In this document: piece by piece, positions 26,160 to 60,300 of the stretch
Layout of the letters: every line of letters starts with the position of its first letter
How positions within the stretch are numbered: the stretch's first letter is position 1
Source: Saururus chinensis
Taxonomy: Eukaryota; Streptophyta; Magnoliopsida; Piperales; Saururaceae
NCBI GenBank assembly: GCA_035235625.1
Contig: CP141146.1
Location: forward strand, 27,708,501-27,772,500
DNA: 64,000 bases
Reading direction: 5' to 3'
Position numbers and translations under genes: made by a program
Notes under the pieces: model-generated
Told to the model about the DNA's origin: nothing
Databases searched by the model: none
Seen by the model: the letters and a program-made list of their open reading frames with translations, nothing else

Positions 26160-26240
26160 GTCAGTATCATTATCTTATGCTTCTATTTAGAAGTGTCATC
26201 TTTGCTGAATCATTAACGTATTACATCTTTTGTGTGACAG

Positions 26241-28107: not shown

Positions 28108-28440
28108 TTTAGGTTCTTAACTTTGGGATTTTGCTGCTTTTATCAACCAAATGGCACACCCTTGATTATATTCAAAAGATATTCTAGCTAATTACTGTGC
28201 TTGCATGAATATTGGATGCCAAACTTTTTTTAAGATATTACTAACATTTATAGATATCAATACTCTATGAATGATTGGAGGAGGAGCACTTGACAGTGTT
28301 GTTACTTCAATATTTTCTATTTATTTTCAATGATGTTTATAAAATAAAGGAAAAATGTTCTTACTACTGTTTATTTTATAATTTTTAGAGCAAATGAAAC
28401 ATCCTATAGGAGTGAAACACACATGAAGTCTATTTCGCAA
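28108..28440 (+). repeat. Tandem gene-fragment unit, copy 4, partial
   Basis: Repeats the first ~330 bases of the unit, up to the CACATGAAGTCTATTTCGCA phrase that elsewhere opens the NPC1-like exon, then breaks off into unrelated sequence at about 28441. Confidence 0.75.
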
Positions 28441-36530: not shown

Positions 36531-36669
36531 ATCATCAGTTGATATATCTGTTGAGGAAAAGGATATCTCAGAAACCTCTGGTTTTCCCTAAATTCAATGT
36601 AAGAAATTCAAACCCAAATGTTGGGGTTGGAGGAGCTCAGAGGCATACAAGTCCGCAAGCTCTCTCTCT

Positions 36670-37623: not shown

Positions 37624-37950
37624 TAGAGAGAGCGATCTCTCTTTTCTCTCAAGCACGCGTGCTCTCTCTCTCTCTCGTGTGCTCTCTCGCGAGCGCGCGT
37701 GCTCTCTCTTGAGCGTGCGTGCTCTCTTCTCTCTCTCTCATTCTCTCTCTCTAGCTCTCTCTCTCCCCCTCTCTCGCTTGCTCTCTATGTGTCTACCTCT
37801 CTCTCTCACACACACACGTGTGCATTCTCTCTCCAGCGCGCGTGCACTCTCTTGCTCTCCTCCCCCCTCTCTCTCCCCCCAACAAAGCATGCGCTCTCTC
37901 TCTCTCTGAGCATGCGTGCTCTCCCTCCCTCCCTCTCTCTCTCCTAGTTC
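37624..37950. repeat. Short GA/CT-palindrome array, likely seed of the main array
   Basis: Directly after the phrase TATGTTCTTAGAATAATATC and GTGATAGAGAGAG lies a run of CTCTCTC spaced by GCACGCGTGC, GCGAGCGCGCGTGC, GAGCGTGCGTGC and AGCATGCGTGC words. The same phrase precedes the main array at 40335. About 330 bases long, then the minisatellite of 34505-36530 resumes. Confidence 0.75.
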
Positions 37951-38760
37951 TATTGCTCATATGCTTATAAATGTGTTTTTCTAAGATTGGTACATATTAT
38001 TTTGTTTATAGAAATAAACAAGTACTTATTTATATATAAAATTTTATGCCTATATATTTATGTGTGTTTATCGATATTCATATATACACATTGATATATT
38101 TGTTTATATTTGTATAGATATATCACCAATTTATTTATTTCTCTCATCTCTCTCTCCCCTCCCTTTCGCTCTCGCTCTCCCCACTCTCCCTCTCTCTCTC
38201 TCCCTCTCTCTCTCTCTCTTAGTTCTATTTGTTCACATGCTTAGAAATGTGTTTTTCTATATTTGTATATATGTTCACATTTATTTTAAGATTGGTACAT
38301 ATTTTTTTGTCTATAGAAATAAACAAGTACTTAATTATAACCTTGGTGTGACATGAAAAGTGGAGCACAATAGAGTGGGGGTAGATCATAAAAGTTGGAA
38401 GTGACGGAAGACAGGATACCCATTTGGAAGTTAAAGTAGTGGAGCACCATACAGTGAGCACGTGCTCTCTCTCTCACACACATTCTCTCTCTCCCCCCTC
38501 TCTCACTCCTAGTTCTTTTGCTCACATACTTACATGTGTTTTTCTATATTTGTATATGCATATATTTTTTAAGATTGGAACATATTTTTTTTGTTTATAG
38601 AAATAAACAAGTACTTATTTATTTATAAAATTTACTTTTTTTTGTAAATTATTTATTTGTATTCATTTATACACATCGATATATTTATCTATATTTGTAT
38701 AGATATATCGCCAATTTATTTATTTATTTATCTCTCTCTCACACTCTCTCTCTCTACTTT
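37951..38760. repeat. Composite minisatellite, second block
   Basis: Further copies of the module at 34505-36530 (near 37945-38130, 38220-38340 and 38510-38740). The copy at 38340-38460 also repeats sequence from 35850-35945 (GACATGAAAAGTG...GCACCATACAGTGAGCACGT), showing that larger pieces were duplicated with it. Confidence 0.65.
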
Positions 38761-38997: not shown

Positions 38998-40345
38998 CTC
39001 TCTCTTTGGGTGTGGGTATCGACTGTTGTTGAGTTGATAATTTCCCTTCATCTTTATGGTTCTGAGTGTGCATTTGTACAATGTCCGAGGAGTTGGAGTC
39101 AACTCTATGCTAATTAGTCCCTATTCCGGCTTCCTCACAGTTCAAACTGGGAGTGGTTTTGGAGTCAGTAGAGAACCTGTCTCTTAGATGGTGGAATGAA
39201 GGGAATTTTTTAGGCAAGAAACTATCCATTTGCTTTTGTATCTCTTTCCAATGTTAAATATTCCTTTAATAATCATCAAGTTCTCATTTATTTCTAAGTT
39301 AACAATGTATTTGTAGATGGACGCCTGATTAAAGTTATGCAAGTATTTGATGCTAAGAAATTATAACGCTTTATATCAGAGATCCCTTACTAATTTGCAT
39401 TCAATATCATAATATATTGCTTCTTTTGCGGTGTATGGCCATGGGTAAAGAGGAAGAAGATTTAGGAGGACTATTATCACTGTTTACTCCTTTGGTGGGT
39501 GTTTTTGTATTTAACTTTTCTTTAAATTCTTAGTAGTTTGATTTTTTGTTTTTTTATGCATGTTTTTTAGATAGAAGATATTGCAATCGTTGAATGCCTC
39601 CATGTCCTTAAGCTCACGTGCTTGCAACCTTTTCAGCTCTTCTAATTCATCCGGATTTTTTATGCTGTTCTATATTCTACCTCAACATCTTGTTTGCAAC
39701 CTTTTCAGCCTATCTAATTCATCTGCTTCTTTTTAAAGTTGCTTAATATTTTTATAATAATCGCATAGAATTAATAGCGTGATTTCTCAGGAATTACAAT
39801 GGCATTTTAGAGATGTGACCATACATAACATGGAGCAGAAAACTAAACTTGTAGAAATGAAACTTGCATCAGCTAATACGCGCTTCCTCTTGGAGAAAGA
39901 CGAATGGCAAAAGACTTGAGAATGTCAAAAAATCATGGCGATGTAAGTTCTTCGTTTAAGTCATTTCATGTCTAGATCCATCCTGAGAAACAATGCACCC
40001 TTGCTTATCTTCTTCATCTTCTTTATTGTGTGTTGTGAACTGAAATATGAGGCATTAGAGGCTGAAAACAGAGAACGTGATGGCATTGATATCCAGAAAG
40101 AATTGGAAGAGCTAAAATTGCATTACGTGAAATTGCAGGTAGAATTGTTCTTGTCATTATTTTTGAGATTATATTATTGTATAACATTGATGGATTGTTA
40201 TTTTTTAAAATTTAAGGGAGAGCATACTTCCTTCCGTGATATCGCTGATAGAATGATTGTGAAGGACAATGAAATCTCCAAGACTCTTGAGTGATAACAA
40301 GAATCTTCGGCAGTCCATAGAATCATGGCCATTGGTATGTTCTTA
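38998..40345 (+). repeat. Segmental duplication, right copy
   Basis: Right partner of 36670-37623. It ends at the same phrase (TATGTTCTTAGAATAGTATT, GTGATAGAGAGA) from which the main GA/palindrome array starts. Confidence 0.75.
39788..40335 (+). pseudogene. Coiled-coil gene fragment, right duplicate (golgin-like?)
   Basis: Exon-like pieces: about 39790-39930 (ELQWHFRDVTIHNMEQKTKL, then MKLASANTRFLLEKDEWQKT and a stop), 40040-40138 (YEALEAENRERDGIDIQKEL, then HYVKLQ before GT), and 40215-40335 (GEHTSFRDIADRMIVKDNEI; in another frame NKNLRQSIES). The pieces form a plausible long coiled coil, but a TGA after DEWQKT and a frame change after NEISK show it is dead. The first piece has no counterpart in the left duplicate. 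Confidence 0.4.
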
Positions 40346-40367
40346 GAATAGTATTAACTGTGATAGA

Positions 40368-40400
<33 letters not shown>

Positions 40401-41878
40401 CAAGTGCCCTCTCTCTCTCTCTCCCTCCCTCAAGCATGCGCACTCGATAGAGAGGGAGAGGGGGGCGAGGAGCGAGCGAGAAAGACCCTCCTCTTTCTCG
40501 CTTGCTCTGCGCCCCCCTCTCGCTCCCTTTCTCGACCGAGCGTGCTCTCTCTTAAGCATGCGTGCTATCTCTTTGGAAAGAGGGCGCATGTTCTCTCTCA
40601 CTCGTGTGCACGTGCTCTCTCACCTCGTTCTTTCTCTCCTTTTTGCATGCGCGCTCGAGAGAGGAGGAGAAGAGAGGGAGCACGTGCGCAAGAGAGAGAG
40701 AGCGAGAGAGTAAACCCTAAACTCTCACACTCTCTCCACCTCTCTCACTCTCTCTCGCTTGAGCGCACGTGGCCTTCTCTCGCTCGTGTGCGCGTGCTGT
40801 CTCTCTCTCTCTCTCTCTCTCTCTCTTATAGTCTCCCTCTTGCTCTCACTCGCTCGTTCTCTCTTTCTCTAGCGTGCATGCTCTCTCTCGAGAGCGCGTG
40901 CTCTCTCACTTGAGCGTGCATTCTCTCTTTAGCGCGTGCTCTCGCTCAAGCATGCGTGCTTAATAGACAGGGAAGGGGGCGGGGAGCGAGCGTGAAAGAG
41001 AGCACATGTGCTCTCTCCCACCCCCTCTTTTTCGCTCGCTCCACACCCCCTCTCATGAGCCTGCATGCTCTCTTTTGAGCACACGTGCTCTTTCCCTATC
41101 TCTCGAGCATGTGTGCTCTTTCGCTATCTCTCAAGCACACGTGCTTTTTTCCTCTCTCGAGCACGTGTGCTCTCTTTCTCAAGCGTGCATGCTCTCCCTC
41201 TTGCTCGAGCGCGTGTGCTCTCTCTTGAGCATGCGTACTCTCTCTCATACTCTCTCTCTCTACTGTGTGCTCTCTTTCAAGCGTGTTGTCTCTATGGAAA
41301 GAGCGCGTGTGCTCTCTCGCTTGTAAGCACGTGCTCTCTCTCTCTCATTCTTTCTCTCTCTAGCATGCACGCTCGAGAGAGAATGAGGAGAAGAGAAGGA
41401 GCACGCGTGCTCGAGAGAGTAAACCCTAAACTCTCACACACTCTCTGTCCACCTCCCTCTCTCTCTCTCTCTCTCTCTCCCACTTGAGCACACATGCCCT
41501 CTCTCGCTCATGTGCGCGTGCTCTCTCGTTCGAGCACGCACACTTGATAGAGAGGGAGGGGGCGGGGAGCAAGTGAGAAAGACAGCACAGTGCTCTCTCC
41601 CACCCCCCTTCTTTTTCACTCGCTCCACATCCCACTCTCTCTCGAGCGTGCGTGCTTTCTTTTGAGCACGTGTGCTCTGTTCCCACTCTCTTAACATGCT
41701 CTCTCTCTCAAGCGCGTGTGCCCTCTCTCTGTAGCTCTCTCGCTCGTTCTCTTGAGCATGCACACTCGATAGAGATAGAGGGGGGCAGAGAGTGAGCGAG
41801 AAAGAGAGCACACAAGCTCTTTCTCACCCCCCCTCTTTTTTGCTCGCTCTACGCCCCCCTCCTCTCTCTCCCTTGAGC

Positions 41879-41913
<35 letters not shown>

Positions 41914-44900
41914 AGAGAGAGAGAGAGAGAGCATGTGCGCTCAAAAGAAGCATGAACGCTCGAGAGAGGGGGTGTGGAGCGAGAGAAAAAGAGGGGGGTG
42001 GGAGAGAGCACATGTGCTCTCTTTCTCGCTCGCTCCCCGCCCCCTCCCTCTCTATCAAGCGCTCAAACGAGAGAGAGCACATGCGCTCAAACGAGAGCAT
42101 GCACGTTTGAGAAAGAGAGAACGAGCGATAGAGAGAGCACGAGGGAGACTATAAGAGAGGGAACACGCGTGCTCGAGATAGAGAGAGAGCACACGCGCAC
42201 AAGAGAGAGGGCATGCACACTCAAGCGTGAGAGAGAGGTGGACAGAGAGAGTGTGAGAGTGCGCATGCTATAGAGAGAGAAAGAACGAAAGGTGAGAGAG
42301 CATGCACACAAGAGCAAGAGAGAGCACGCGCGCTTAAGTGAGAGAGCATGCGCGCTTAAGCGAGAGAGCACTCGCACTCGATAAAGTGCATGCACACTAG
42401 AAAAAGAGAGAACGAGTTAGAGAGAGCACGCGTTCACGAGCGAGAGAGGGCACCTGCGCTCAAGAGAGAGAGAGAGTGAGAGTTTTGGGTTTACTCTCTC
42501 TCTCGAGCGCGGATGCTAGAGAGAGAGAAATAACAAGAGGTGAGAGCATGCGCGCACGAGCGAGAGAGAGAATGCACGCTCTTTCCAGAGAGACAGCACG
42601 CATGCTCAAGAGAGAGCACACTCAGTCAAGAAAGGGGGGGCGCGGAGCAAACAAGAAAAAGGGGGGATCTTTCTCGCTTGCTCTGCGCCCCCCCTCTCCC
42701 TCTCTATCGAGTGCGCATGCTTGAGGGAGAGAGAGATACGAGCGAAAGCGAGAGGTAGAGAGAGAGCATGCACGCTCAAGAAAGAAAGAGCATGCGCTCT
42801 CTTGCTCATTTTCTCTCTAAGTCTTGAGCGCTCGTGCAAGAGAGAGAGAGAGAGAGAGAGCGAGCACGAGTGCTTGAGAGCACGCGAGTTTGAGAGAGAG
42901 CTGCACTCTCCAGAGAGAGAATGAACATGCACGCTTGAGAGAGCACGCGAGCTCGGGAGAGAGCTTGAATGCTCGAGAGAGAGAGAGAGATAACGAGCTA
43001 AAGAGAGCACGCACGCTGCGGAGAGAGAGAGTGGGAACGTAGAGCGAGCGACAAAGAGGGCGGTGAGAGAGCACGTGTGGTCTCTTTCTCACTCGCTCCC
43101 CGCCCCCCCTCTCTCTATCGAGCGCGTGTGCTCGAGAAAGAGAGAATGGGTGAGCAAGAGCTACAGAGAGAGAGCATGTACGCTGAAGAGAGAGGGAAAG
43201 AGCACTTGCGCTCAAAAGAAAGCATGCACGCTAGAGAGGGGGTGGGAGAGAGCGAGAAAGAGGGGGTCTTTCTCACTCACTCCTTGCCCCCCGCCTCCCT
43301 CTCTATTGAGTGTGCGTGGTCGAGGGAGAGAGAGAGAGAGAGAGAGAGGATGGGCGAGAGAGAGATAGAGAGAGAGCACACGCCCTTGAGCAAGAGAGAG
43401 CACACGCTCGAGCAAGAGAGAGCACGCGCTCTCTCGCTCGTTCTATCTCTCTATCTAACTCTTGAGCACATGTGCTCGAGAGAGAGCACACGCGTGCTGG
43501 AGAGAGCACGTGAGCTCATGAGAGAGCTTGCACTCTCAAGAGAGAGAAAGAGAGAGAATGAGCACACGTACTTAAGAGAGAGCACGCACACTCGGGAGAG
43601 AGAGGGAGGGCGGTGTAGACGAGCGATAAAGAGGGGGTGGTCAGAAAAAGCATACGTGCTCTCTTTCTCATGCCCCCTCCCCTCTATCTCGATCATGCGC
43701 GCGTGCTCGATAGAGAAAGAGAGAACAAGCGAGAGAGAGCTACAAAGAGAGAGAGAGAGAGATCACGCACGCTTAAGAGAGTACGTGCGCTCAAAAGAGA
43801 GAGTACATGAGCTCAAGAAAGAGGGAAAGAGCACGCACGCTGAAAAGAAAGCCCACATGCTTGAGAGAGGGGGTGTGGAGGCGTGGAGTGAGCAAAAAAG
43901 GGGGGTGGGAGAGAGCACATGTGCTCTCTTTCTCGCTAGCTCCCTGCCCCCTCCCTCTCTATCTACCGTGCGTGATCAAGCGAGAGAGAGCACGAGGGAG
44001 ACTATGAGAGAGAGAGAGAGAGCATGAGGGAGGCTATAAAAGTGAGAGGTGGACAGAGAGTGTGAGAGTTTAGGGTTTACTCTCTCTCTCTCTCTCTCGA
44101 GCGTGCGTGCTCCGTTTCTTCTCTTTCTCATTCTCTCTCGAGCGCACGTGCTAGAGAGAGAGAAAGAACGAGAGAGAGCACACACACACAAGCGAGAGAG
44201 AGCACGCACGCTGTTTCCAGAGAGACAGCACGCATTCTTCAGAGAGAGTACACTCGGTCAAGAAAGGGAGGTAGAGGGGGGTGCGGAGTGAGCGAGAAAG
44301 ATGGGTGATGAGAGAGAGCACACGTGCTCGAGAGAGATCTTGCACGCTCAAGGGAGAGAGAGAGAGAGAGGTGGTGAGAGAGAGCACACATGCTCATGCG
44401 AGAGAGAGTGCACGTGTGCTAAAGAGACCATGAGTGCTCGAGAGCACGCGCACTTCAAAGGGAGCACGTGCGACCGAAAGAGAGCACGCGCTCTTGATAA
44501 AGAGCATGAACACTAGAGAAAGAGAGAACGAGTAAGAGAGAGCACGTGCACTCCAGCTAGAGAGAGAGTGAGAGAGGTGGACAGAGAGAGTGTGAAAATT
44601 TTGGGTTTACACTCTCTCAAATGCATGTTCTCCCTCTCTTCTCCTTCTTGTTCTCTCTCGAGCGCATGTGCTAGAGAGAGAAAGAATGAAAGATGAGAGA
44701 GCACGTGCACACAAGCGAGAGAGAGCACACGTGCTCTTTACAGAGAGACAGCATGCATGCTCAAGATAGAGCACGCTCGGTCGAGAAATGGAGGGAGAGG
44801 GGGGCGCAGAGCATGCGAGAAAGTGGGGGGTCTTTCTTGCTCACTCTTCACCCCCCCTCTTTCTCTCTCTCTATCCAGTGCCCGTGCTCGAGGGAGATAG

Positions 44901-46822
44901 ATAGAGAGAATGAGTGAGAGAGAGCATGCACACTCGAGCGAGAGGACACACACGCTCTCTTCTCTATCTCTTAAGCGCACATGCTCAAGAGAGAAAGCAC
45001 ACACGCTTGAAAGAGCATGCGAGTTTGAGAGAGAGCACATGTGTTCTCTTTCTCACTCGCTCCCCACCCCCTCACTCTCTATCAAGCATGCGGGCTAGAG
45101 AAAGAGAGAACGAGCAAAGAGCACGCTCGGTCAAGAAAGGGAGGGAGAGCGGGGGGGCGAAGCAAGCGAGAAAGAGGGGGGGTTGTCTCACTCGCTCCTT
45201 GCCCCCCCTCTCCCTCTCTATCGAGTGCGTGTGGTCAAGGGAGATAGAGAGAGAGCATGCGCGCTCGAGCAAGAGAGAGCACACGCTCTCTCGCTCGTTC
45301 TATCTCTCTATCTAACTCTTGAGCACACGCGCACTTAAGAGAGCACGCGAGTTCATGAGAGAGCTTGGACGCTCAAGAGAGAGAGAGAGAGAATGAGCAT
45401 GCGCGCTAAAGAGAGAGCACGCACTCTCGGGAGAGAGAGGGAGGGTGGCGTAGACGAGCGACAAAGAGGGGGGGGGGGTCAGAAAGAGCATACATGCTCT
45501 CTTTCTCACACGCTCCTCCCCCTTTATCTCTATCAAGTGTGCGTGCTCGAGAGAGGGAGAAAGAGAGAACGAGTTAGAGAGAGATAGAGAGATAACACGC
45601 CCGCTTGAGAGAGAGTACGTGCGCTCAAGAAAGAGGGGAAGAGCATGCGCACTCAAAAGAGGGGGGTGGGAGAGAGCACATGTTCTCTTTTTCTCGCTCG
45701 CTCCCCGCCCCTCCCTCTCAATCTAGTGCGCGTGATCAAGAGAGAAAGAGCACGCGCGCTCAATCGAGAGAAAGCATGCGTGCTCGAAAGAGAGCATGCG
45801 TTTTAGAGAAAGAGAGAACGAACGGGAGAGAGCATGAAGGAGACTATAAGAGAGAGAGCACGCGTGCTCAAGAGAGAGAGAGAGAGCATGCATGCACAAC
45901 TGAGAGAGAGAGAGAGAGAGAGAGAGTGAGAGAGGTGGACAGAGGAGTGTGATGGTTTAGGGTTTACTCTCTCTCTCTTGAGCCTGCGTGTTCTCTCTCT
46001 TCTCCTTCTCGTTCTCTCTCAAGCGTGCATGCTAGAGAGAGAAAGAACAAGAGAGAGCACACGCACACAAGTGCACAAGCGAGAGAGAGCACGCACACTC
46101 TTTCTAGAGAGACAGCATGCATGCTCAAGAGAGAGCACGCTTGGTCTAGAAAGGGAGGGAGAGGGGGGCGCGGAGCGAGCGAGAAAGAGGGGGGGTGAGA
46201 GAGAGCACACACGCTTGAGAGAGAGCTTGTACGCTCACGGGAGAGAGAGAATTAGCATGCTCACTGAGGGAGGGGGTGTAGAGCTATCGACATAGAGGGG
46301 GGGGGGGGGTGAGAGAGAGCATGTGTGCTCTTTCTCGCTCGCTCCCCACCCCCCCTCTATCTCAATTGAGCGCGCATGGTCGAGATATAGAGAGAAAGAG
46401 AGAACAAGCGAGAGATAGCTACAGAGAGAGAGAAAGAGCACAAGCGCTTGAGAGAGAGAGCACGTGTGCTCAAGAGAGAGGGAAAGAGCATGCGCGGTCA
46501 AAAGAAAGCATGCACACTTGAGAGAGGGTGGTGTGGACCGAGCGAAAAAGAGGGCGGGTGGGAGAGAGCACATGTGCTCTCTTTCTCTCTCGCTCCCCGC
46601 CCCCTTCTTCTCTATCAATCGCGCATGCTCAAGCGAGAGAAAGCACGGTGCTAAAGAGAGCACGCGCGCTCTAGCGAGAGAAAACATGTGCGCTTGAAAG
46701 AAATAATGCGCGCTAGAGAAAGAGAGAATGAGTGAGAGAGAGAGCACAAAGGAGACTATAAGAGATAGCATGCGTGCTCGAGAGAGGGAGCATGCACGCA
46801 CGAGTGAGAGAGGGAACACACG

Positions 46823-46856
<34 letters not shown>

Positions 46857-46986
46857 GGACAGAGAGAGTGTGAGAATTTAGGGTTTTCTCTCTCTCTCGA
46901 GCGCGCGCTCTCCCTCTCTTCTCCTTCTTGTTCTCTCTTGAGTGCGTGTGCTAGAGAGAGGGTACAGAGCGAGCAAGAAAGAGGGG
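40346..46986. repeat. Main GA/palindrome array, left segment
   Basis: About 6.6 kb built almost entirely of (GA)n or (CT)n runs of 6-30 bases separated by short self-complementary words: GAGCACGCGTGCTC, GAGCATGCGTGCTC, GCACATGTGC and variants with CGCGCG cores. Higher-order units can be followed by a telobox-like TTTAGGGTTTA preceded by GAGGTGGACAGAGAGAGTGT. These occur at 42483, 44069, 44599, 45956 and 46877 on the top strand, and as TAAACCCTAAA at 40711 and 41420 on the opposite strand. Other landmarks of each unit are CTTTCCAGAGAGACAGCACG, GGAGGGAGAGGGGGGCG and CTCGCTCGCTCCCCGCCCCC. Every long open frame here is an Arg/Glu or Ser/Leu shadow. No gene. Confidence 0.9.
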
Positions 46987-46991
46987 GTCTT

Positions 46992-47318
46992 TGTTGTGCC
47001 CGGTGCGGGCACAATCGGTACACAGGAGTTCTACGCAGGGAAAGAGAAAGAAATAGGAAGAAAGGAGAGAAATAACTGGAGTCCTATTAGCATAACCCGA
47101 ACACAAGGAGGGAGATGACCCTTTATGGGGAGTCACACCCTCCCACTTTGGGAATTGTGCCACTAGTGGGCCCGGCTATCCCGTGGTCCACTAGTGCGCC
47201 CATTACAGTTTAACAGTAAAACATAAATATAGATCATTCTCAACACAAGGGAAACTAACCTAATGTTCATAAATAAATAAAGATAAATAAATGAGGAATC
47301 ATGTGAGCGTGCACAACA
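46992..47318 (-). repeat. 3' LTR of fossil 2
   Basis: Left LTR on the map, 327 bases, TGTTGTGCCC...GTGCACAACA. The inner border on the minus strand is preceded by GTGGTGGAG, a possible polypurine tract. Confidence 0.88.
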
Positions 47319-47348
47319 CTCCACCACGCTTCCGCACATGCCTTGTCC

Positions 47349-50300
47349 TCAAGACTTCCAAGCTGGGTAGCAAGACATGAACTCATCCTCTGGCATCCAT
47401 GTGGCCTCCTCAAGTGTTTGTCCCTGCCAAGAAATCAGAACCTCAATAATAATGCGACCGGAACGGCGGACACGATGTTTATCGAGTAGCGAGGCATGAA
47501 CCGGGTCGGAGGCAGCAACTGGGCCCATCAGGGGTGGTGGTGGAGCATCCGTGGCCAAAGAGGTGTCTCCTATGCAACGACGCAGCCTGGAGACATGAAA
47601 GACAGGGTGGACCATAGAACCCGGCGGCAAGGTAAGGCGATAAGCCACTGGACCAATATGCTCCTCCACAGCATAGGGCCCATGGAAATGGGGGGCGAAC
47701 TTGGCATGTTCAGGCTGAAACAAGGATGTCTGATGCTGAGGAAGAACAAAGACATAAACCATGTCGCCCACCGCGAACTCCCGGTCAGTGTGATGACCAT
47801 CATAAATCTACTTCATCCTGTTCTGAGCCGAAGACAAGTTCTCCTTAAGCTGTCTAAGAACCTCGTCCCTTGTCTGGAGCATATAATCGACCTCAGCCAC
47901 CGAAGCGCGATGAGGAACATACGATAACACCGTCGGGGGCGGCTGTCCATACAATACCTCAAAAGGAGTGAAACCGGCACGAGTATGACAAGCGGTGTTA
48001 TAATACTACTCCGCCCAAGGAAGAAGCTGAAGCCATCGGCGGGGTTGAGACATAGTGAAATAGCGCAGGTACTGCTCTAAGCATCGATTTACCACCTCTG
48101 TCTGACCATCCGTCTGAGGGTGATAACCGGTGCTCATGTGAAGAGAGGTGCCCTGTAAAGTGAAAAACTCCCGCCAAAATTGAGATATGAAAACCCAGTC
48201 GCGATCAGAGACAATAGTGCGAGGCATACCGTGTAGCTTGGCCACCTCCTGGACATAGAGTTCGGCCACTGACTTGGCAGTGAAGGGATGTCCCAGAGCA
48301 CAAAAGTGAGCGTACTTGGATAGCCGGTCCGCCACAACCATAATCACCGACTTGCCCTGCACCAAGGGCAGGGCCTCCACGAAGTCCATAGAAACGTCCT
48401 CCCAAACCTTATCGGGAATAGGCAAGGGCTGAAGCAAACCCGCAGGAGAGGCTGTGGTGGCTTTAGCTCTCTAACAGACATCACAAGCGGCCACATACTC
48501 AGTAACAACCCGGTGAATTCCCTACCACATAAAACTCTGACTGGCCCGCTTATAATCCCTCATGACCGGCCACGGGAGTGTCATGGAAGTGGGAGAGGAT
48601 ACACCGGCGAAGATCAGCCACATCGGGTACCCATAGGCGGTCCTTCCAAAAGAGAAGGGCATCCTTCCATGCAAAGAATGGCCGAGCAGCTGGGTCGGTC
48701 TGGAGGGAAGTAATCAAGGTGCGGGTCGGAGGGTCATCCTGGTACGCCTGTTTTAACTCAGCAAGAAAGGGGCAAGCTGGATTGGAAAGAACCAAACACA
48801 ACCCGGGTGAAGAACGGCGAGAAAGTGCATCAGCCACGGTGTTTTTTGATCCTTTCTTGTACACGACCTCATAATCATAGCCAAGAAGCTTGCTAACCCA
48901 CCACTGCTATGACAGAGTGGACACCCACTATTCGGGGAAATACTTCAGGGGCTGGTGGTCAGTGCGGATTAGGAACCTGCGGCCAAGCAAATAAGGCCTC
49001 CACTTGTTGACCGCAAGGATGATGGCCAACATCTCCTTCTCATATACTGACAAGGACAGGGAACAACCAGCCAAAGCTTTGCTAAAGTAAGTAATGGGCC
49101 GCTCATCCTGCAGTAACACCGCCCCCAGGCCGGCTGAAATCAGGAAGGATCAGAATAGGGGCGGATGCCATAGCCCTCTTCAGTTCGGCAAAGGCCGCTT
49201 GGGCAGCTCGGACCAGCTGAATGCCCCCTTCTTCAACAGCTCTGTAAGGGGGCGAGCAATCTCGCCATAGCAGTTAATGGACCACCGATAGTAGCTAGTG
49301 AGGTCGAGAAAGCTCCGAAGCGCCCGAACGCAAGTAGGGGCCGACCAGGAAAGCAGTCAGGCTGCCTTTGGAGGGTTAGTGGCGACACCATCATGAGAGA
49401 TGATATGGCCCAAGTATTCCACCTGTGGGCTGCCAAACGAATACTTCGAATGCTTAAGAAACAAAGAGTTATCTTTCAGAATAGCAAAGATAGACCTGAG
49501 ATGTTTGTTGTGTCCGGATCGGACACAAACGGTACCTAGCTTCACGAAGGAGAAAGGGAAGAAGTTTGGATGAGGGAAGAAGAGAAATAATTCTGAATTG
49601 CATAAACGTCCAAGGAGGAAGACAACCTCTTTTATAGGAGGCGGCCATTACAATCCCTTTAATTACGGACCACCATCTGGTCCATTACAATCATTAACGG
49701 ACCATTACAATCATTAATGGTCCGTTACAATCATTAAGGGTCCGTTACAATCATTAACTAAATCCCCTTGATTACGCTTTATTACATCACAAAAGGAAAT
49801 GACCAAAAAGTAAAGTAAGCCATAATATAGTAGGTCCTAAAATGGAAAGTAGTGCATGGTGGGGAAGATGTCTCGTGGCGTACACAACAATGCTCCAAGT
49901 GGTCCGCCCATGACTTGCTATAGATAAGGATATCATCGAAGAACACCAAGATGATGCGGCGGAGGAAGGGCCAGAAGAGATCATTCATGAGGCTCTGAAA
50001 TGTGGAGGGGGCGTTGGTCAGGCCAAATGGCATGACAAGGAACTCAAAGTGGCTGTCATGAGTCCGGAAGGCCGTCTTGTGCACATCAGCGGCTTGCACT
50101 CGTATCTGATGCTCCAGCCAGCTCATCCAGAAGCTCTTCAATCACCGGTATAGGGTACTTGTCCTTGACAGTGATAGCATTTAAGGCCCGGTAGTCAACA
50201 CAGAATCGCCATGTGCCATCTTTCTTTTGCACGAGTAACACCGGGGAGGAGAAAGAGCTCGTGCTCGAATGAATGATACCGGAGTGAAGCATGTCCACCA

Positions 50301-51156
50301 CAAGATGCTCTATCTCTGCCTTCTGAATGTGCGGGTAGCGGTACGGCCAGACATTGGCCAGAGAGGCCCCTGGCAGTATAGGAATATAGTGATCATGAGG
50401 CCGCACCGGAGGCAGCCCATGCGGTTCAGCAAACACCACACTATGCTCTACCAATAAGTCAATAAGATCCTGCGGTAACTCATCTTGAAGGACTTCGACC
50501 GTTGCCCGCTATTGAAGGAGGAATCCCTGTGGGGCAAACCGAAACAAGGAACCTATCGACTGAGCAGAAAGGAGGGTGCCTGGCTGAGACCCCTGGAGCC
50601 GAACCCGCTGTCCTTGAACCTCGAAATTCATTACCATATCTTTAAAATTCCATAACATGTCCCCAAGCTCTTGGAGCCACTGCACCCCTAACACCATGTC
50701 CGCCCCTTTCATAGGCAGCAGAAAGAGGTCGGTAACGAAGGTGTGGCCCTGAATGGAGAGTGCTGCCTGGGTGCAGACCCCTGAGCTCCGAAGGTGCTTC
50801 CCGTCACTAATCAGCACGTCAAAGGGCTTCGAATCCGACACGAAGCAGCCTAGCCGTTGGGCTACTCTGTCGTTAATGAAGTTGTAGGTTTACCCACTGT
50901 CCATCAGAATAGCCACTTGCTGCCGCTTGAGGTGGCCCTGGACTCGCATCGTGCATGGAGTGAATGCCCCCGAGAAAGCATGGATAGAAATCTCTGGCAG
51001 CATGTCATCATAGTGCGACGAGTCAGACCTGTTTGCCACCTCCCTCTCCTCATCGACCTCCTCCACTAAAAGACTGCCCTTAACGGAACAACAGTGCCCC
51101 GGGACAAGCTTCTCATCATAGCGAAAGCAAAGCCCCTTCGACTGACGTTCCTCCAT
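47349..51156 (-). mobile_element. Fossil 2: zinc-knuckle-like and pol parts
   Basis: In order on the minus strand: GLCFRYDEKLVPGHCC (knuckle-like, about 51130-51090), protease (VAILMDSG, about 50900), reverse transcriptase (CVDYRALNAITVKDKYP near 50180; [12 protein letters not shown] near 49940), RNase H (ERPITYFSKALAG, RTDHQPLKY near 48950), integrase (HDTPVAGHEG near 48570; [19 protein letters not shown] near 48370; [24 protein letters not shown]), and a C-terminal tail with HPVFHVSRLRR and SWQGQTLEEATWMPEDEF, the chromodomain-like signature. This is a fossil. Confidence 0.85.
49506..49889. mobile_element. Nested solo LTR inside the reverse transcriptase part of fossil 2
   Basis: A 384-base unit with TGTTGTG...CACAACA ends, flanked by ATGTT (49501-49505) and ATGCT (49890-49894), a 5-bp duplication with one mismatch. 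It has no coding sequence. Its ends resemble those of fossil 2 but the interior differs (tandem GGTCCGTTACAATCATTAA words at 49680-49760), so it is a related but distinct LTR family. It is younger than fossil 2. Confidence 0.85.
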
Positions 51157-51260
51157 CTGGGCAGGAGTGAGCTAGCGAACAATTGGACCAGTTTGAGAGG
51201 GTTGCTGGCCAAAGCGGCCAACCACTGGGTTGCTGGCCGGGGCAGCAAGAGGGGAAGCAC

Positions 51261-52305
51261 TCACAGCAGCCCGGGGAAAAGTCCCCAGCCGGCCTCCACG
51301 TCGCTGTCTAGCCAGCTTCTCTTCTTCAATGCGTGCGTGGCGCATGACATCACGCATGCTGGAGCAGGGGAAATGACACATCTCTTCATAAATCTCTGGT
51401 TTGAGCCCCCTCTTGAACGTGGCACCAAGGCAGCCACTGGCCAATCTGGGAGACGGTTGGCCACCTTCATGAACTCCGTATAATAAGCCCAGACGGTGGT
51501 GGTTTGCCGAAGGGAGGAGGGCATCTTGTTGAAGTCTTGGAACTCATTTGGGCCAAACTGGATGCACAACTCGTCGGAGAAGGCGGCCCAAGTGGGGTAG
51601 CGCACCTCCTTTTCAAAACTATGGAACCATACTGAAGCGTCCCCGTCTAGGTGGAAGGCCGCTATGTGCAGTCTTTCAGCCTCCGAATGTGTTCCCTGGT
51701 AGGCGAAAAACTTCTCCGCCTTGTACAGCCACTCCACTGGGTCGTCGTCCCCATTGTACCGTGGGAACTGTAGGTGGGCCAAATGAGGTTCAGCCCCTCC
51801 ACGGGGTGCTCCGTGGGGTCCTGGGTACTCCTCCCAGTCATCCTCCATCTCCTGGAACAAGTTTTGAGGAGGCGGCATCATTGGGGCATTTTCCCGAACA
51901 CCTAGTGTGCCTCGCGTAACCCAGGCCTGGGCCTCCCATCCATGGCCTGATCGACTATGCCAAAGCGCACAGTACCATGGGGAAAGCACATATCTCGGTC
52001 CGCCGGTGCCGGAAGGTCAGAGGGGTGCAGTTCGGGGGCCAGGGATGGCCCCCCTTCTCCAAGAACACAGTTGGTGGTTTGGGAAAAAGGGGCGCTGAGC
52101 GCTCTGTTTGAAGCTCAGCCACGGCCAAGCCCAAAGCATCGACCTTGGCTACACCCATGCTCAAGGTCTGAATTTCCGCCATGATTTGTGCTAGAGTAGG
52201 CTCGCCGTTAGATTCTGGCACTGTCTTCGGGCTGTCCGTAGAGGCGAGAGCCTCCTTCTTGGGCTGAACTTCCGGGGCCGCGACAGCTTGTTTTCCTCGT
52301 GCCAT
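51261..52305 (-). mobile_element. Fossil 2: gag part
   Basis: The first ATG after the primer site opens MARGKQAVAAPEVQPKKE. The capsid-like region includes FPRYNGDDDPVEWLYKAEKF and LDGDASVWFHSFE, the typical plant gypsy gag core. This is a fossil. Confidence 0.8.
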
Positions 52306-52321
52306 GGCTAGGGATCTTAAA

Positions 52322-52335
52322 AGCTCTGGTACCAA
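52322..52335 (-). promoter_or_regulatory. Primer-binding site of fossil 2
   Basis: On the minus strand the 5' LTR is followed by TTGGTACCAGAGCT. It matches the initiator tRNA-Met type site TGGTATCAGAGC at all but one position. Confidence 0.8.
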
Positions 52336-52674
52336 TGTTGCGCCTGGTGCGGGCACAATTGGTACACAGGAGTTCTACGCAGGGAAAGGGAAAGAAGTAG
52401 GAAGAAAGGAGAGAAATAACTGGAGTTCTATTAAGCATAACCCGAACACAAGGAGGGAGACGACCCTTTATGGGGAGTCGCACCCTCCCACTTTGGGAAT
52501 CGTGCCGCTAATGGGCCTGGTTATCCCGTGGTCCACTAGCGCGCCCATCACAGTTTAACAGTAAAACATAAATATAGATCATTCTCAACACAAGGGAAAC
52601 TAACCTAATATTCATAAATAAATAAAGATAAATAAATGAGGAATCGTGTGAGCGTGCACAACACGTACACAACA
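52336..52674 (-). repeat. 5' LTR of fossil 2
   Basis: Right LTR on the map, 339 bases. It carries about 12 extra bases (CGTACACAACA) at its outer end compared with the 3' LTR, a small local duplication of the terminus. The target duplication follows directly. Confidence 0.88.
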
Positions 52675-52679
52675 GTCTT

Positions 52680-53667
52680 TCTCGCTCGCTCCTCACTCCT
52701 CGCCCTCCCTCTCCCTCTCTATCGAGTGCGCATGATCGAGGGAGAGCGAGAAAGAGCTTGAAAGAGAGAGCACGAGTGCTCAAGCAAGAGAGAGCACGCG
52801 CGCTTGAGCGAGAGAGCACACGCTCGAGCGAGAGAGAGCACGTGATCTCTCACTCCTTCTATTTCTCTATCTAACTCTTGAGCACACGTGCTCGAGAGAG
52901 AGTACACGCGCGCTTGAGAGAGCATGCAAGCTCGTGAGAGAGCTTGCACGCTCATGAGATAGAGAGAGTGAATGGGCACGCACTTTAAAGAGAGAGCAAG
53001 AATGCTCGGGAGAGAGAGGGAGGGTGGCGTAGATGAGCGACAAAGAGGGGGGGGTCAGAAAGAGCATATGTGCTCTCTTTCTAGTGGAGAGAGAGAGAGA
53101 GAGAGAGAGAGATAAAGAAAGAGAGAGAGAGAGAGAGAACGAGCGAGAGAGAGCACACGCTCTTGAGAGAGGGAGTACATGCACTCAAGAGAGGGAAAGT
53201 GCACACGCGCTCAAAAGAAAGCATGCATGCTCGAGAGAGGGGGGTGTGGAGCAAGCGAAAAAGAGCGGGGTGGGAGAGAACGCATGTGCTCTCTTTCTCG
53301 CTAGCTCCCCGCCCCTCCCTCTCTATCTAGCGCGCGTGCTCAAGCGAGAGGGAGCATGCGCGTTAAAGAGAGCATGTGCGCTATAGCAAGAGAGAATGTG
53401 CGTTAGAGAAAGAGAGAACGAGTGGGAGAGAGAGCACGAGAGAGACTATAAGAGAGAGAGCATGCATGCTCAGAGAGAGAGAGAGCACGCATGAGAGAGA
53501 GAGAGCACGCACAACCGAGAGAGGGCACGTGCGCTCAAGTGAGAGAGAGTGAGAGAGGTGGACAGAGAGAGTGTGAGAGTTTAGGGTTTACTCTCTCTCT
53601 CTCAAGCGCGCGTGCTCCCTCTCTTCTCCTTTATGTTCTCTCTTGAGCGCGCGTGCTAGAGAGAGAG
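52680..53667. repeat. Main GA/palindrome array, middle segment
   Basis: Continuation of the array after fossil 2; the sequence left and right of GTCTT joins a normal unit (GGGGGTCTTTCTCGCTCGCT). Contains a telobox-like motif at 53580-53590. Confidence 0.9.
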
Positions 53668-54209
53668 TGATGTGCAGCGCAGAGAAAGAAGATGAGTGCC
53701 AAAGCAATAATGAACTTTGAACGGAACTCGCTGAGAGGAAAGATCACAAGGATTACGATGACTTAAGCTTGAGGGCATCTGAAACTGTCTCTGAGGAGAG
53801 ATAGCCAAGGAAGATAGGTTCTAAGAGTTGCTGATACTCCAGACACAATTTTAAGATGAACAAGCCAAAAACTCCATTTTCATTACTTAGAAAGCCTTAT
53901 ATAGGCTTAATTTCATACAAGCATTTGAAATAACATTAAATGTCTTAAAACAAGTCCCTAGTAGACTACATATGAAAGAGTGCCTTGGCTGCAACAGCTT
54001 GCTTTAATTAATGAGGCCTTGGGACTCCAAAAGTTGCAGGCCAGGAAAAGAATCTTTGTGGTTGGGCTCAATTAATCCTTGGCTTTTGGTCTTCTCTTGG
54101 ATTCTTGGGCTTCTTCTTAAAATATGGGCGATGGGCCTTTAGCTGGGCTTTCAATGGCTTTGCTGCATCCAACTTGTCCAAGTACTTGTCAGCAATATGA
54201 TTCACATCA
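53668..54209 (-). mobile_element. Solo LTR (family S1), copy 2
   Basis: 542 bases, TGATGTGCAGC...CACATCA, the same family as 6951-7535 with several small deletions. Flanks GAGAG (53663-53667) and GAGAA (54210-54214) are a likely 5-bp duplication with one mismatch in GA-rich target DNA. It sits inside the GA/palindrome array, so it is younger than the array at this point. Confidence 0.8.
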
Positions 54210-54222
54210 GAGAAAGAGTAAG

Positions 54223-54257
<35 letters not shown>

Positions 54258-55767
54258 ACAAAGGCACAAGCGAGAGAGAGAGCACACGCACTCTTTCCAG
54301 AGAGACAGCACACATGCTAGAAGGAGAGTATGAGAGAGATAGAACACGCGCGCTTGAGAGAGAAGGAAAAAGCATGTGGGTTTGATTGCTAGGGAAAGAG
54401 CACACTCACTCAAAAGAGCTTGCATGCTTGAGAGAGAGGGGGGTGTTGAGTGAGCAAAAAAGAGGGGGTGAACATGTGATCTCTTTCTCGCTCTCTACCC
54501 ACTCCCTCCTCTCTATCAAGCGCGTGCTCGAGCGAGAGAGAGAACGAAAATGAGAGCATGTGCACTAAAGCGAGAGATAGCACGCGCACTCAAGCGATAC
54601 AGAGAGCACGCGCGCTCAAAAGAGAGCATGCGTGCTAGAGAGAGAACGAGAGAGAGAGCTAGAGGGGTAAAACGAGAGAGAGAGCACGCGTGCTCGAGGG
54701 AGAGAGCACGCGTGCACGAGGGAGAGAGCACGCGTGCTCGAGGGAGAGCACGCGTGCACGAGCGAGATAGCACACGTGCACGAGCGAGAGAGAGTGCATG
54801 CGCACTCAAGCAAGAGAGAGAGAGCGAGAAAGGCGGACACACAAAGAATGTGCGAGAGTTTAGGGTGTACTCTCACTTGAGCGCACGTGCTGTCTCGAGG
54901 GAGCATGCCCTCTCTCTTCTCTCTCATTCTCTCTCTCAAGTGTGCGTGCTCGAGTGAGAGAGAACATGCGCACTCGAGCGAGAGAACACATGCGCTCAAA
55001 ACAGATCACACTCGCTCGAGAAAAGGAAGGAGAGGGGGGCGGCGAGTGAGAAAGAGGGGGGTGAGAGAGCATGGGTACTCTCTATCTTACTTGAGTGAGA
55101 GCGAGAGAGCATGTGCTATCGAGAAAGGGAAAGAGCACGCATGCTCAAGAAAGAGACAGAGAGAGGGTGGGGGTGGGGGTGTGGAGCAAGAGAGAAAGAG
55201 GGGGGGTGAGAGAGAGAGCACATGTGCTCTCTTTCTTGCTCGCTCCCCACCCCTCTCAACCTCTCCATCGAGTGCACATGCTCGATCGAGAGAGAACGAG
55301 AGAGAGTAAGCACGCTCGATAGAGAGCACACGCACTAGAGAGAGAATGAGCGAGAGAGAGCTAGAGGGAGAGTATGAGAGACCATGCATGCATGAAAGAG
55401 AGAGAGCACGTGCGCTCAAGAGAGAGGGAAAGAGCACGCATGCTTGAGAGAGACAGCAAAGGAGCACGCCACTCAAAAGAGAGCATGCACGCTCTAGAGA
55501 GGGGTGTGGAGCAAGCGAAAAAGAGGGGGTGGGAGAGAGCAGATGTGCTCTCATTCTCGCTTGCTCCCTGCCCCCTCCTTCTCTATCAAGCGCGCGTGCT
55601 CGAGCAAGAGAGAGCACATGCGCTTAAGAGAGCATGCACTCTCAAGCGAGCGAGAGCACGCGCGCTCGAAGGAGAGCATGCGTGCTAGAGAAAGAGAGAA
55701 TGAATGAGAGAGAGAGAGAGAGTGAGAGTGAGAGAGGTGGACAAAGAGTGTGAGAGTTTAAGGTTTA

Positions 55768-55798
<31 letters not shown>

Positions 55799-56080
55799 GC
55801 GCACGTGCTCCCTCTCTTCTCCTTCTCGTTCTCTTTGGAGAGCGCGTACAAGAGAGAGAGAAAGATCGAAAGGTGAGAGAGCACGCGCGCACGAGTGAGG
55901 GAGAGCACTCTCGCTCTTTCCAGAGAGACAGCACACATGCTCAAGAGAGAACATGCTCGGTCGAGAATGGGAGGGAGAGGGGGGCGCTGAGCGGGCGAGA
56001 AAGGGGGGGTCTTTCTCGCTCACTCCTCACCCCCCTCTCCCTTTCTATTGAGTGTGCGATCTTGAGGGAGAGATAGGTGG

Positions 56081-56112
<32 letters not shown>

Positions 56113-57073
56113 GAGAGAGAGAGAACGAGTAACAGAGAGCATGCACGCTTGAGAGAGTACACGAGCTTTAGAAAGAGCTTGCACGCATGCTAAAGAGAGA
56201 GCATGCATGCTCGGGAGAGAGGAGGGGGCGTAGAGCGAGTGACAAAGAGGGGGTGAGAGAGAGCATGTGTGCTCTCTTTCTCATTCGCTCCCCGCCCCCC
56301 ACTATCTCTATCGAGCGCACGTGCGAGAGAGAGAGAGAGAAAGAGAGAACGTGCGAGAGATAGCTATAGAGAGAGAGAGAGCATGCGCTCTTGAGAGAGA
56401 GAGAGAAAGAGAGAGAGAGAGCACGTGCGCTCAAGCGAGAGGGAAAGAGCATGCACGCTCAAAAGAAAGAATGCACACTCGATAGAGAAGGGGTGTGGAG
56501 TGAGTGAAAAAGAGGGGAGGTGGGAGAGAGCACATGTGCTCTCTTTCTCTCTCGCTCCCCGTCCATTTCCTCTCTATCAAGCGTGCGTGCTCGAATGAGA
56601 GAGAGCACGCACGCTCTAGCGAGAGAGAGCACGCGTGCACGAAAGAGAGCATGTGCACTAGAGAAAGAGAGAACGAGCGAGAGAGAGAGAGAGAGCACGA
56701 GGGAGACTATAAGAGAGAGAGAGAGAGAGCACGCGTGCTCAAGTGTGAGAGAGAGAGTGAGAGAGGTGGACAGAGAGTGTGCGAGCATAGAGTTTACTCT
56801 CTCTCTCTCTCTCTTGAGCACGCGTTCTCCCTATCTTCTCCTTCTCATTCTCTCTCAAGTGCACGGGCTAGAGAGAGATAGAAAGAACGAGAGGAGAGAG
56901 AGCACACGCAAACAAGCGAGAGAGAGCACGCACGCTCTTTCCAGAGAGACAACATGCCTGCTCAAGAGAGAGCACGCTCAGTCGAGAAAGGGAGGGACAG
57001 GGGAGCGCGGAGCGAGCGAGAAAGAGGGGTGTTTTTTCTCGCTCACTCCGTGTCCCCCCTCTCCCTTTCGAGG

Positions 57074-57171
<98 letters not shown>

Positions 57172-57371
57172 ATGTGGAGCGAGCGAAAAAGAGGGGGTGG
57201 GAGAGAGCACATTTTCTCTCTTTCTCTCTCGCTCCCCGCCCCCATCCTCTCTATCAAGCATGCGTGTTTTAGTGAGAGAGAGCACGTGCACTAAAGAGAG
57301 GTTGCGCGTTCTAGCGAGAGAGAGCACAAGTGCTCAAAAGAAAGCATGCACGCTAGAGAAAGAGGGGCGGG
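54210..57371. repeat. Main GA/palindrome array, right segment
   Basis: Same composition as 40346-46986. Telobox-like motifs at 54859, 55757 and, degenerate, 56786. A very regular stretch at about 54675-54790 shows GAGAGAGCACGCGTGCTCGAGG-like units of 20-26 bases alternating CGTGCTCGAG and CGTGCACGAG. It ends at about 57371, where the ~315-bp satellite starts out of phase with the end of array 1. Confidence 0.9.
57072..57168. repeat. Pure (GA)n run
   Basis: About 97 bases of uninterrupted GA dinucleotide, the longest perfect run in the window. It falls between the GGAGGGACAGGGGAGCGCGG and GGATGTGGAGCGAGCG landmarks of a unit. Confidence 0.9.
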
Positions 57372-60300
57372 GGAGGTCTCTTAAATCTTTAAACGATATA
57401 AGTTAAGGAAGAACCGTCAAATTGTGGAATCACTTTATCAACAAACGTAACAAATGAATGTGAGGCATCTTTAAACTGTAAACGAATAATGATTCCCACA
57501 CATTCTTAACTTACATCAGTTTTTATCGATAAAAATATATAACATGACCAAAAGGGGTCCGATTAGTTTGTTGTTTAGTCTGTTTGATTTATTCTTTTGA
57601 AATTAGTAAATAAGTATGTATTCATTTAAAATAATTAAATATTTATTCGCGACAAGCTTTGGTACTTTGTTCTAAATCTACTTAAGTGAATTAAATTATA
57701 TAAGTTAAGGAAGAACTATCAAATTGTTGAATTACTTTGTTAATTTAATTTGTTTATAAATGTAGCAAATAAATGAGAGGTCTCTTTAAACTTTAAACAA
57801 TGTAACGATTTATGCACATTCATAATTACTTCCATTTTAATATAATAAAAAAAAGATAACTTGTGCAAAAGTGGGATTCATTCTTTCGATCACTTTGGTT
57901 CGTCATTTAGTACATTTAATTCATTCTTTCGAACTTTGCAAATAACTATGTAGTTATCTAAAATAATTAAATATACATTTGTGACGAGCTTAGTGCTTTC
58001 TTCTAAATCTAGTCAAGCGCATGAAATCATATAAATTAAGGAAGAATGGTTAAATTGTGGAATCACTTTGTCAAATTGATTCGTTATTACAAACATAGTA
58101 AATGAGGTCTCTTTAAACTTTAAACAATATAATGATTTGTACGCATTCTTAACTTACTTAAGTTTAATCGATCAAAAGGATATAACTTGACCAAAAGGGG
58201 TCTGATTCGTTCGTCGTTTAGTACATTTCTTATTCATTCTTTTGAACTTTGCAAATGAGTACATATTTATTTAAAATAATTCAATATACATTCGTGACGA
58301 GCTCTAAAGCTAGTTAAGCGACCATATAAAAGGAAGAACGGTCAAATTGTGGAATCACTTTTTAAATTTTATTTGTTATTACAAACGTAACAAATGAATT
58401 GGAGGTCTCCTTAAAGTTTAAACGATATAAAATTTTTTGCACATTTTTAACTTGCTTCGGTTTTAATCGCTCAAAAAGATATAACTTGACCAAAAGTAGT
58501 CCGATTGAATCATCATTTAGTACATTTTTTTCATTCATTTCAACTCAGCAAATGAGTATGTATTCATTTAAGACAATTAAATATATATTATTGACGAGCT
58601 TTGGTGCTTTGTTTTAAATCTACTTAAGCAAATGAAATCATATAAATTAAGGAAGAACGGTTAAATTGTGGAGTCTCTTTATCAATTTGATTCATTATTA
58701 CAAACGTAACAAATGAATTATAGTTCTCTTTAAACTTTAAACGATATAATAATTTGTACACATTCTTAACTTATTTCCGTTTTTAATAGATCAAAGGATA
58801 TAACTTTACTAAATGGGGTACGATTTGTTTGTCGTTTAGTAAATTTTATTTATTTTTTTAAACTTAACAAATGAGAACATATTTATTTAAAATAATTAAA
58901 TATACATTCGTAATGAGCATTGGTACTTTGTTCTAAATCTAGTTAAGCGAATGAAATCATATAAGTTAGTGAAGAATGGTCAAACTGTGGAGTCACTTTG
59001 TAAATTTGATTCGTTATTATGAACGTCATAAATGAATACAAGGTGTCTTCAAACTTTAAATGATATAACAATTTGTGCACATTCTTAACTTAATCGATTT
59101 TAATCGATCAAAAGGATATAACTTGACCAAAAGGGTCCGATTGGTTTGCCGTTTAGTACGTTTGATTTATTATTTTGAACTTAGTAAATGAGTACATATT
59201 CATTGAAAATAATAAAATATACATTCATGATGAGCTATAGTGCTTTGTTCTAAATCTAGTTAAGCGAATAAAATAATATAAATTAAGAAAGAATGGTCAA
59301 ATTGTGGAATCACTTTATTAATTTAATTATTATTACAAAGGTAACAAATAAATGAGAGGTCTCTTTAAACTTTAAACAATATAACACTTTGTTCACATTA
59401 TTTACTTACTTTGGTTTTAATTGATCAAAAAATGATATACCTTGACTAAAAGTAGTCTAATTAGTTCATTGTTTAGTACATCTGATTCATTATTTCGAAC
59501 TTTATAAATGAGTACATATTTATTTAAAATAATTAAATATACATTTGTGACGAGCTTTGATGTTTTGGTCTTAATCAAGTTAAGTGAATGAAATTATATA
59601 AGTTAATAAAGAATGGTCAAAATGTTGAATCACTTTGTTAATTTATCTCGTTATTCCGAACGTAACGAATGAATAGGAGGTCTCTTTAAACTTTAAACGA
59701 TAGAATAGTGATTTGTGGACATTTTTAACTTCATTTTTAATCGATTAAAAGGATATAACTTGACCAAAAGTGGTTTGATTGGTTTGTCATTTTGTACATT
59801 TAATTTATTCTTTTGAACTTAGCAAATGAATACGATTTTATTTAAAACTATTTAATATACAATCATGACAAGCTTTGGTGTTTTATTCTAAATCAAGTTA
59901 TGCAAATGAAATCATATAAGTTAAGGAATAACGGTTAAATTGTGGAATCATTTTGTCAACATTCTTAACGTGCATCGGTTTTAATAAATTAAAAGGATAT
60001 AACTTAACCAAAATGGGCAGATTGATTTGTCGTTTAGTACGTTTGATTCATTTTTTTGAACTAAGCAAATGAGTACGTAGTAATTTAAAATAATTATATA
60101 TAAATTCATGAGGAGCTAGTGCTTTATTCTAAATCTAGTTAAGCGAATAAAATCATATTAGTTAAGAAAAAATGGTAAAATTGCGGTATCACTTTGTCAA
60201 TATCATTAATTATTACGAACGTAACAAATTAATAAGAGGACCCTTTAAACTTTAAACGATATAATGATTTGTACACATTTTTAACTTACATTGGTTTTAA

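Follow-up and report, generated by a model that had tools for sequence, protein, structure and literature searches.

An array of GA tracts and short CG-rich palindromes in the genome of Saururus chinensis raises the question of whether such words are kept for the structures that they could form or are the remains of a simpler repeat. The array occupies positions 40346-57371 of the window, by which we mean the whole 64,000-nucleotide stretch analysed here (contig C7, 27708501-27772500), and the genome searched for its relatives comprises 516 Mb in 11 contigs, with 28 matches to chlorophyll a/b-binding proteins marking it as that of a plant. An earlier note on this DNA had put the array at about 10.8 kb, and it measures 10,753 bp once insertions are removed. 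We consider it likely that the array is an old member of an ageing heterochromatic satellite family built from runs of GA and CG dinucleotides. Its palindromes and its Z-DNA-like alternation look like decayed CpG runs, and the unexpected part of the family is one conserved word.

The basic cell and the CpG-type decay of its core

The composition of the array was compared with 100 dinucleotide-preserving shuffles of its 10,753 bases. The core pattern of the repeated cell was found 177 times, on a count of both strands in which a symmetric core may score twice, against 0.0 in the shuffles (maximum 1). Purine or pyrimidine runs of at least 12 bases cover 2,624 bases (493 when shuffled, maximum 638), alternating stretches of (YR)5 or longer cover 338 (9.6, maximum 34), and there are 14 exact 14-bp palindromes (1.8, maximum 6). 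All four measures lie above the shuffles, as expected from the earlier description of a large repeat in which GA tracts are combined with self-complementary words rich in CG. In principle the motifs allow triplex, Z-DNA and hairpins; that note had spoken of triplex, Z-DNA and cruciforms.

The cell consists of (GA)n followed by GAG-CA-(YR)3-CTC. Inserts between purine runs are most often 11 bases long (71 inserts), then one base (68), and 580 inserts give the profile C-A-[CT][AG]-[CT][AG]-[CT][AG]-C-T-C; some members of this set were counted twice, since loci L017/L011, L019/L012 and L003/L005 overlap. A second set of 448 cores was of fixed orientation, with overlaps removed and more loci added; it is divided into 11 locus groups, of which the regular C11 group described below gave no cores and C8 just 4. 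The YR steps in these cores are CG, TG or CA, and TA appears at a frequency of 0.016 where independence predicts 0.098, a deficit seen in all nine groups that have enough cores. Within the three CpG steps the A/T states are correlated at -0.41, -0.37 and -0.38, and all other pairs among the six positions lie within +/-0.10. This is the signature of a CpG that has lost one C on either strand. Such changes are transitions, so the alternation of pyrimidine and purine is retained without selection and does not have to be kept for itself. Independent confirmation comes from 40 repeat units on C11, where transitions reach 0.120 at CpG sites and 0.032 elsewhere (about 3.8-fold), with transversions at 0.020 and 0.029, respectively.

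The distance between adjacent cores also bears the mark of a dinucleotide repeat. All 76 spacings of up to 34 bp are even (45 of 45 in the first set after removal of overlaps, 31 of 31 in two new loci), and spacings of 35-60 bp are even in 41 cases and odd in 7. Even spacing is not imposed by the search pattern for cores, and slippage in the (GA)n linkers would leave it.

If palindromes were selected, the mirrored positions of a core should covary, and they do not. Perfect 8-bp palindromes make up 0.094 of the 448 cores and 0.099 (standard deviation 0.012) after CpG steps are permuted among cores, the observed value being reached in 685 of 1,000 permutations; for the cores of the window alone the frequency is 0.164, with 0.129 expected. 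Given the states of the CpG steps, palindromes thus stand at chance and show no sign of being kept for themselves. Palindrome selection is unsupported by the 448-core test, and the 580-insert set agrees.

Hairpins, units and relatives in the genome

On the plus strand the array has two orientations, pyrimidine-rich at about 40400-41874 and purine-rich at 41874-57371, with the minimum of purine/pyrimidine runs at 41874. Its parts, and the insertions in it, are as follows.

40346..41874, minus strand: left part of the array, its purine strand on minus; run minimum at 41874; 40409-41132 is an inverted match to 57108-56405
41461..42137, no strand: head-to-head switch, an imperfect inverted repeat with its axis at ~41799-41805 and a hairpin apex at ~41814
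41875..46986, plus strand: main array of irregular modules, its purine strand on plus
41967..42067, plus strand: a representative hairpin B, including the conserved box (GTGCTCTCTTTCTCGCTCGCTCC), motif start 42004
42630..42698, plus strand: a representative hairpin A, with a short loop between a G-rich and a C-rich arm
46992-52674 (46987..52679 with flanks), minus strand: Ty3/gypsy long terminal repeat (LTR) retrotransposon, with GTCTT at 46987-46991 and 52675-52679
49506..49889, no strand: solo-LTR-like piece nested in the Ty3/gypsy element (TGTTGTGTCC...ACACAACA)
52680..53667, plus strand: continuation of the array
53668..54209, no strand: LTR-like insertion TGATGTG...CACATCA of 542 bp, with a second copy at 6949-7535 (88%)
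54210..57371, plus strand: right part of the array, directly adjoined by an AT-rich 319-bp satellite
54672..54792, plus strand: the basic cell, (GA)n plus core, in its best local tandem, with a 22-bp period and 5.6 copies (Tandem Repeats Finder, TRF)

Two inverted-repeat modules recur, hairpin A with a short loop and hairpin B with an apex such as CACATGTG. They bear on the proposal that cruciforms, Z-DNA or triplex formed by the palindromes or hairpins are under selection for a structural role, for instance at centromeres, for which non-B DNA has been proposed (PMC9070824). In favour of such selection, hairpin B is present in loci of C4, C5, C6, C7, C10 and C11, and a satellite confined to one region per contig lies near GA arrays on three contigs (see below). 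However, eight loci examined on C1, C2, C3 and C8 have the cell or core but neither hairpin B nor its box, and hairpins thus do not characterise the family as a whole. In 27 strict hairpins the CpG steps of one arm vary independently of those of the other, with outer steps complementary in 13 cases (12.6 expected) and inner steps in 8 (9.6 expected), and the compensatory changes that a selected cruciform should show were not found. Looser searches had given apparent covariation (698 rows, reached in 0 of 2,000 shuffles; 235 and 68 rows, 1 and 0 of 2,000), which we attribute to an admixture of plain (GA)n/(CT)n background, there being none in the strict hairpins. For the 40 C11 units arm pairing is 0.8426 against 0.8371, a value reached by 65 of 2,000 shuffles and hence at most a weak sign of kept pairing, and the left arm carries a near-fixed mismatch (pair 10 is paired in 3%) and diverges at non-CpG letters about 20 times as much as the right. 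We regard structural selection as improbable. Non-B DNA is possible, but it is probably not what the array sequence was kept for.

The family itself is widespread. The exact word GAGAGCACGCGTGCTC occurs 31 times on 10 of the 11 contigs, and its reversed control not at all, so that the cell recurs through most of the assembly as a multi-locus family. One unit of the array used as a BLAST query returned at least 497 matches, the best of those listed being on C7 at 27.64-27.99 Mb, followed by C11, C4, C6, C5 and C10. The exact hairpin-box pattern GTGCTCTCTTTCTYRCTYRCTCCCC was found 83 times on 6 contigs (reversed control 0). Many of its matches on C11 are spaced by about 230 bp and belong to a regular satellite, built around the hairpin, of 36.3 copies of a 229-bp unit. 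Between arrays on C7, single pairs reach an identity of 0.965, indicating that these arrays were duplicated as blocks. A link of the family to telomeres was rejected, as among 14 sequences examined TTTAGGG was found in array context at C7 loci only. Copies on C3 at 18725296, 18739582 and 18753903 (L007, L008) lie about 14.3 kb apart, and the two that were retrieved have near-identical composition profiles, a possible tandem segmental duplication.

Whether the window array deserves the name of satellite, which the earlier note had given it, depends on the sense intended. Arrays of the family are found on several chromosomes, and on C11 units of one length stand head to tail with a mean pairwise identity of 0.883 among 40 of them, which is a satellite in the strict sense. 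The window array, in contrast, has no fixed unit: TRF (periods up to 500 bp) gives only local periods of 2-46 bp, and the landmark TTTAGGGTTTA is spaced irregularly. Copies of the box region are about as similar between arrays (mean identity 0.657-0.701) as within groups (0.668-0.712), so there is no homogenisation in the window.

The spread over many contigs would also be expected if the array were part of a mobile element, such as a long GA-rich terminal or untranslated region, and one relative (L042) is interrupted by about 5 kb between two copies of a 33-base word, probably another element. In the window, the retroelement inside the array has its own flanking copies of GTCTT, and the array ends on different neighbours, a gene fragment on one side and the AT satellite on the other, in an analysis in which constant ends were not searched systematically. 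We therefore judge a mobile origin very improbable. The Ty3/gypsy insertion has one arm of a short-loop hairpin on either side. Its LTRs (46992-47319 and 52336-52664) are 94.5% alike over 329 bases, and Pfam finds gag, integrase and SH3 matches on the minus strand and a weak chromo domain below the curated cut-off. The start of the solo-LTR-like piece nested in it is also present on C3 (locus L041), and for the LTR-like piece at 53668-54209 target-site copies were not resolved amid GA sequence.

A constant word in one hairpin arm

Decay has not affected the C11 units evenly. Among 40 units, 6 of 800 non-CpG letters differ in the box stretch and 13 of 960 in a second stretch, against 481 of 7734 overall, and both constant stretches contain AGAAAGAGAGCA, in opposite orientations. 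Non-CpG divergence is 0.004 in the right arm of the hairpin, 0.090 in the left arm, 0.024 in the loop and 0.059-0.083 in the rest. As one of the constant stretches is an arm of the hairpin and the opposite arm drifts, it is the sequence and not the pairing that is conserved. The units were located by searching for the right arm and allowing up to 3 substitutions, so that the divergence measurable there is limited, though no unit was skipped within the run (spacings 209-254). Across ten locus groups, TGTGCTCTCTTTCT heads the non-simple 14-mers with 61 occurrences, in 7 of the 10, and ranks second in L054+L055 and second in L053.

Any cause assigned to this constancy must be inferred. The word AGAAAGAGAGCA, which lies in the box TGTGCTCTCTTTCTCGCT, might together with the GA runs form a protein-binding site, either for BBR/BPC GAGA factors or for a protein not yet known, in which case the arrays would act as chromatin-nucleating or protein-sink DNA. 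The two constant stretches and the frequency of the 14-mer speak for such a site, as does the fit of AGAAAGAGA, within that 14-mer, to RGARAGRRA, which PMC6477699 reports as a minimal BBR/BPC consensus. The same paper links BBR/BPC proteins to Polycomb recruitment, but it also gives the number of GAGA tetranucleotides as a better predictor than the consensus. Any (AG)4A fits RGARAGRRA, and although its density is high in the array (36.9 per kb, against 0.2 in 9500-34000), the plain GA tract at 1-1365 is denser still (46.2). CpG sites in the right arm are not better kept than those in the left (divergence 0.113 and 0.075), and shared ancestry may contribute, much of the left-arm divergence consisting of a few variants common to 6-8 of the 40 units. 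In view of the eight loci without a box, and of a second stretch that varies as little as the box itself, we weigh this explanation down and hold it to be possible but rather unlikely.

A bolder reading would have much of the family held together by AGAAAGAGAGCA as a protein-binding word, with arrays marking initiation zones or sites of chromatin nucleation. On this reading the word would be kept twice per C11 unit, in opposite orientations, while the rest decays, and arrays would run outward from a pyrimidine-to-purine switch by analogy with base skew around a replication origin. We think it a long shot.

Setting, origin and meaning of the array

The switch from pyrimidine-rich to purine-rich sequence in the window array is part of a larger regularity. 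In six of six two-stranded clusters of the box the strand changes from minus to plus, so that the plus strand is first pyrimidine-rich and then purine-rich (C4 42.39, C5 45.90, C7 27.93 and C11 35.96 Mb; C6 55-57 and 68-87 kb), where clusters were delimited by distance and C6, if taken as one, also has a plus-to-minus step. A reversal inside the C4 array, from plus at 42390700 to minus at 42392054, is contrary to the rule. The switches of the window and of C7 27.93 Mb are homologous, which also counts against the regularity; a common ancestor for all switch centres was rejected, as only these two align end to end (87%, 844 bp). A possible cause of the switches is hairpin-primed inversion. A loose search for apexes near switch axes puts the two about 3 bp apart in L015 and at a distance of about 10-15 bp in the window, these switches representing one event, but about 40 bp apart in C11.

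The AT-rich satellite of about 319 bp, at 2605-6560 and 57441-63742 of the window, might be a candidate centromeric satellite, judging from its distribution: an exact 37-mer of it has 24 matches, which fall within a single region on each of 8 contigs out of 11, with a spread of 3 Mb on C4. GA arrays lie near its clusters on C3, C4 and C7, whereas megabases separate the two on C1, C2, C5, C10 and C11, which leaves a general centromeric role for the arrays unsupported. The 42-base telomere pattern TTTAGGGx6 has 0 matches in the genome, and the contig ends that were read (L045, the C6 start; L046, the C11 end) are without telomere repeats, so the nearness of arrays to those ends is no evidence for a subtelomeric location. 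Some contigs are of round size, and scaffold ends are probably incomplete. Such imperfect scaffolding is what could be cited for an assembly artefact, but diverged copies on many contigs, an insertion with flanking GTCTT and a consistent mutation spectrum make this extremely unlikely.

No gene was found that belongs to the window array. Its start adjoins a fragment duplicated at 37306-37593, which is likewise followed by a short array of the same kind. The two copies of this open-frame fragment (37306-37593 and 40001-40295) are 93.6% alike, each is followed by family sequence, and they have no Pfam match at E 0.01. An Rfam search gave 0 matches. Elsewhere in the window, large complex direct repeats of up to 1.8 kb, about 85-90% alike, occupy 19564-28362 (for example 22672-24500 and 25579-27393), and the related plain GA tracts at 1-1365 and 7682-9228, 81-87% alike, flank the AT satellite. 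Repeated CT-tract units at 34505-38670, 82-91% alike, are mostly without CpG cores, which are present in a short stretch at 37645-37727, and palindromes of at least 10 bp are in excess at 32001-34000 (16 and 13 per kb, other parts having 0-7).

The history that we propose would begin with a compound dinucleotide repeat as founding cell, a GA run, a CG run and a closing CTC, about 20-28 bp in all, which would have multiplied through slippage in 2-bp steps. Groups of cells, which in many arrays include inverted pieces (hairpins A and B), would then have been duplicated into units of about 0.2-1.6 kb, and units copied to other chromosomes, presumably by unequal exchange as well as slippage, and on C7 duplicated across several hundred kb. 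Before and after duplication, CpGs would have turned into TpG and CpA through changes on both strands, a decay typical of methylated CpGs, in what may be a setting of methylated heterochromatin, and as transitions preserve purine and pyrimidine classes, the alternation would survive and some cores would be palindromic by chance.

Several points weigh against this history. The founding CG run is deduced rather than seen, and the avoidance of TA could have some other cause. Palindromes scatter by group, with 0 of 15 in the irregular C11 group (expected 0.133) and 0.125 in C2 (expected 0.081), and the loci of C1, C2, C3 and C8 lack the hairpin and box described above. The large-scale polarity is unexplained by slippage, and the low divergence of AGAAAGAGAGCA exceeds what a model of decay needs.

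The family has features in common with several known repeats. A literature search confined to titles, and weak as evidence, found none that names this repeat. Compound GA/CG microsatellites likewise slip in 2-bp steps but are without the higher-order units and the amplification on many chromosomes found here. The AAGAG satellite of Drosophila is linked to GAGA factor. It resembles the present array in being purine-rich with triplex potential, and PMC6316130 describes it as triplex-forming in heterochromatin, but it is a simple 5-bp repeat rather than one of CpG-core cells with hairpins in many arrays and larger units. The macro-dyad satellites of Tribolium madens share an inverted array arrangement and hairpin potential, but by the account in PMC13081366 they are two satellites from an element of about 110 bp that extend over multiple megabases, whereas those described here are kilobase-sized, dinucleotide-based and decayed. 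Meloidogyne satellites (PMC3694981) also retain short motifs among diverged repeats, one of these motifs resembling a CENP-B box; the word here is of GA/CT type and lies in a hairpin arm.

Selected structure is a common reading of the palindromes and Z-DNA-like words found in satellites. With hundreds of cores in one genome, a simple test indicates that CpG decay can yield the pattern while palindromes remain at chance, and the same test is applicable to other satellites for which abundant dyad symmetry has been claimed. The hairpin arm that is conserved while its partner is not, in turn, provides a concrete candidate for a binding site.

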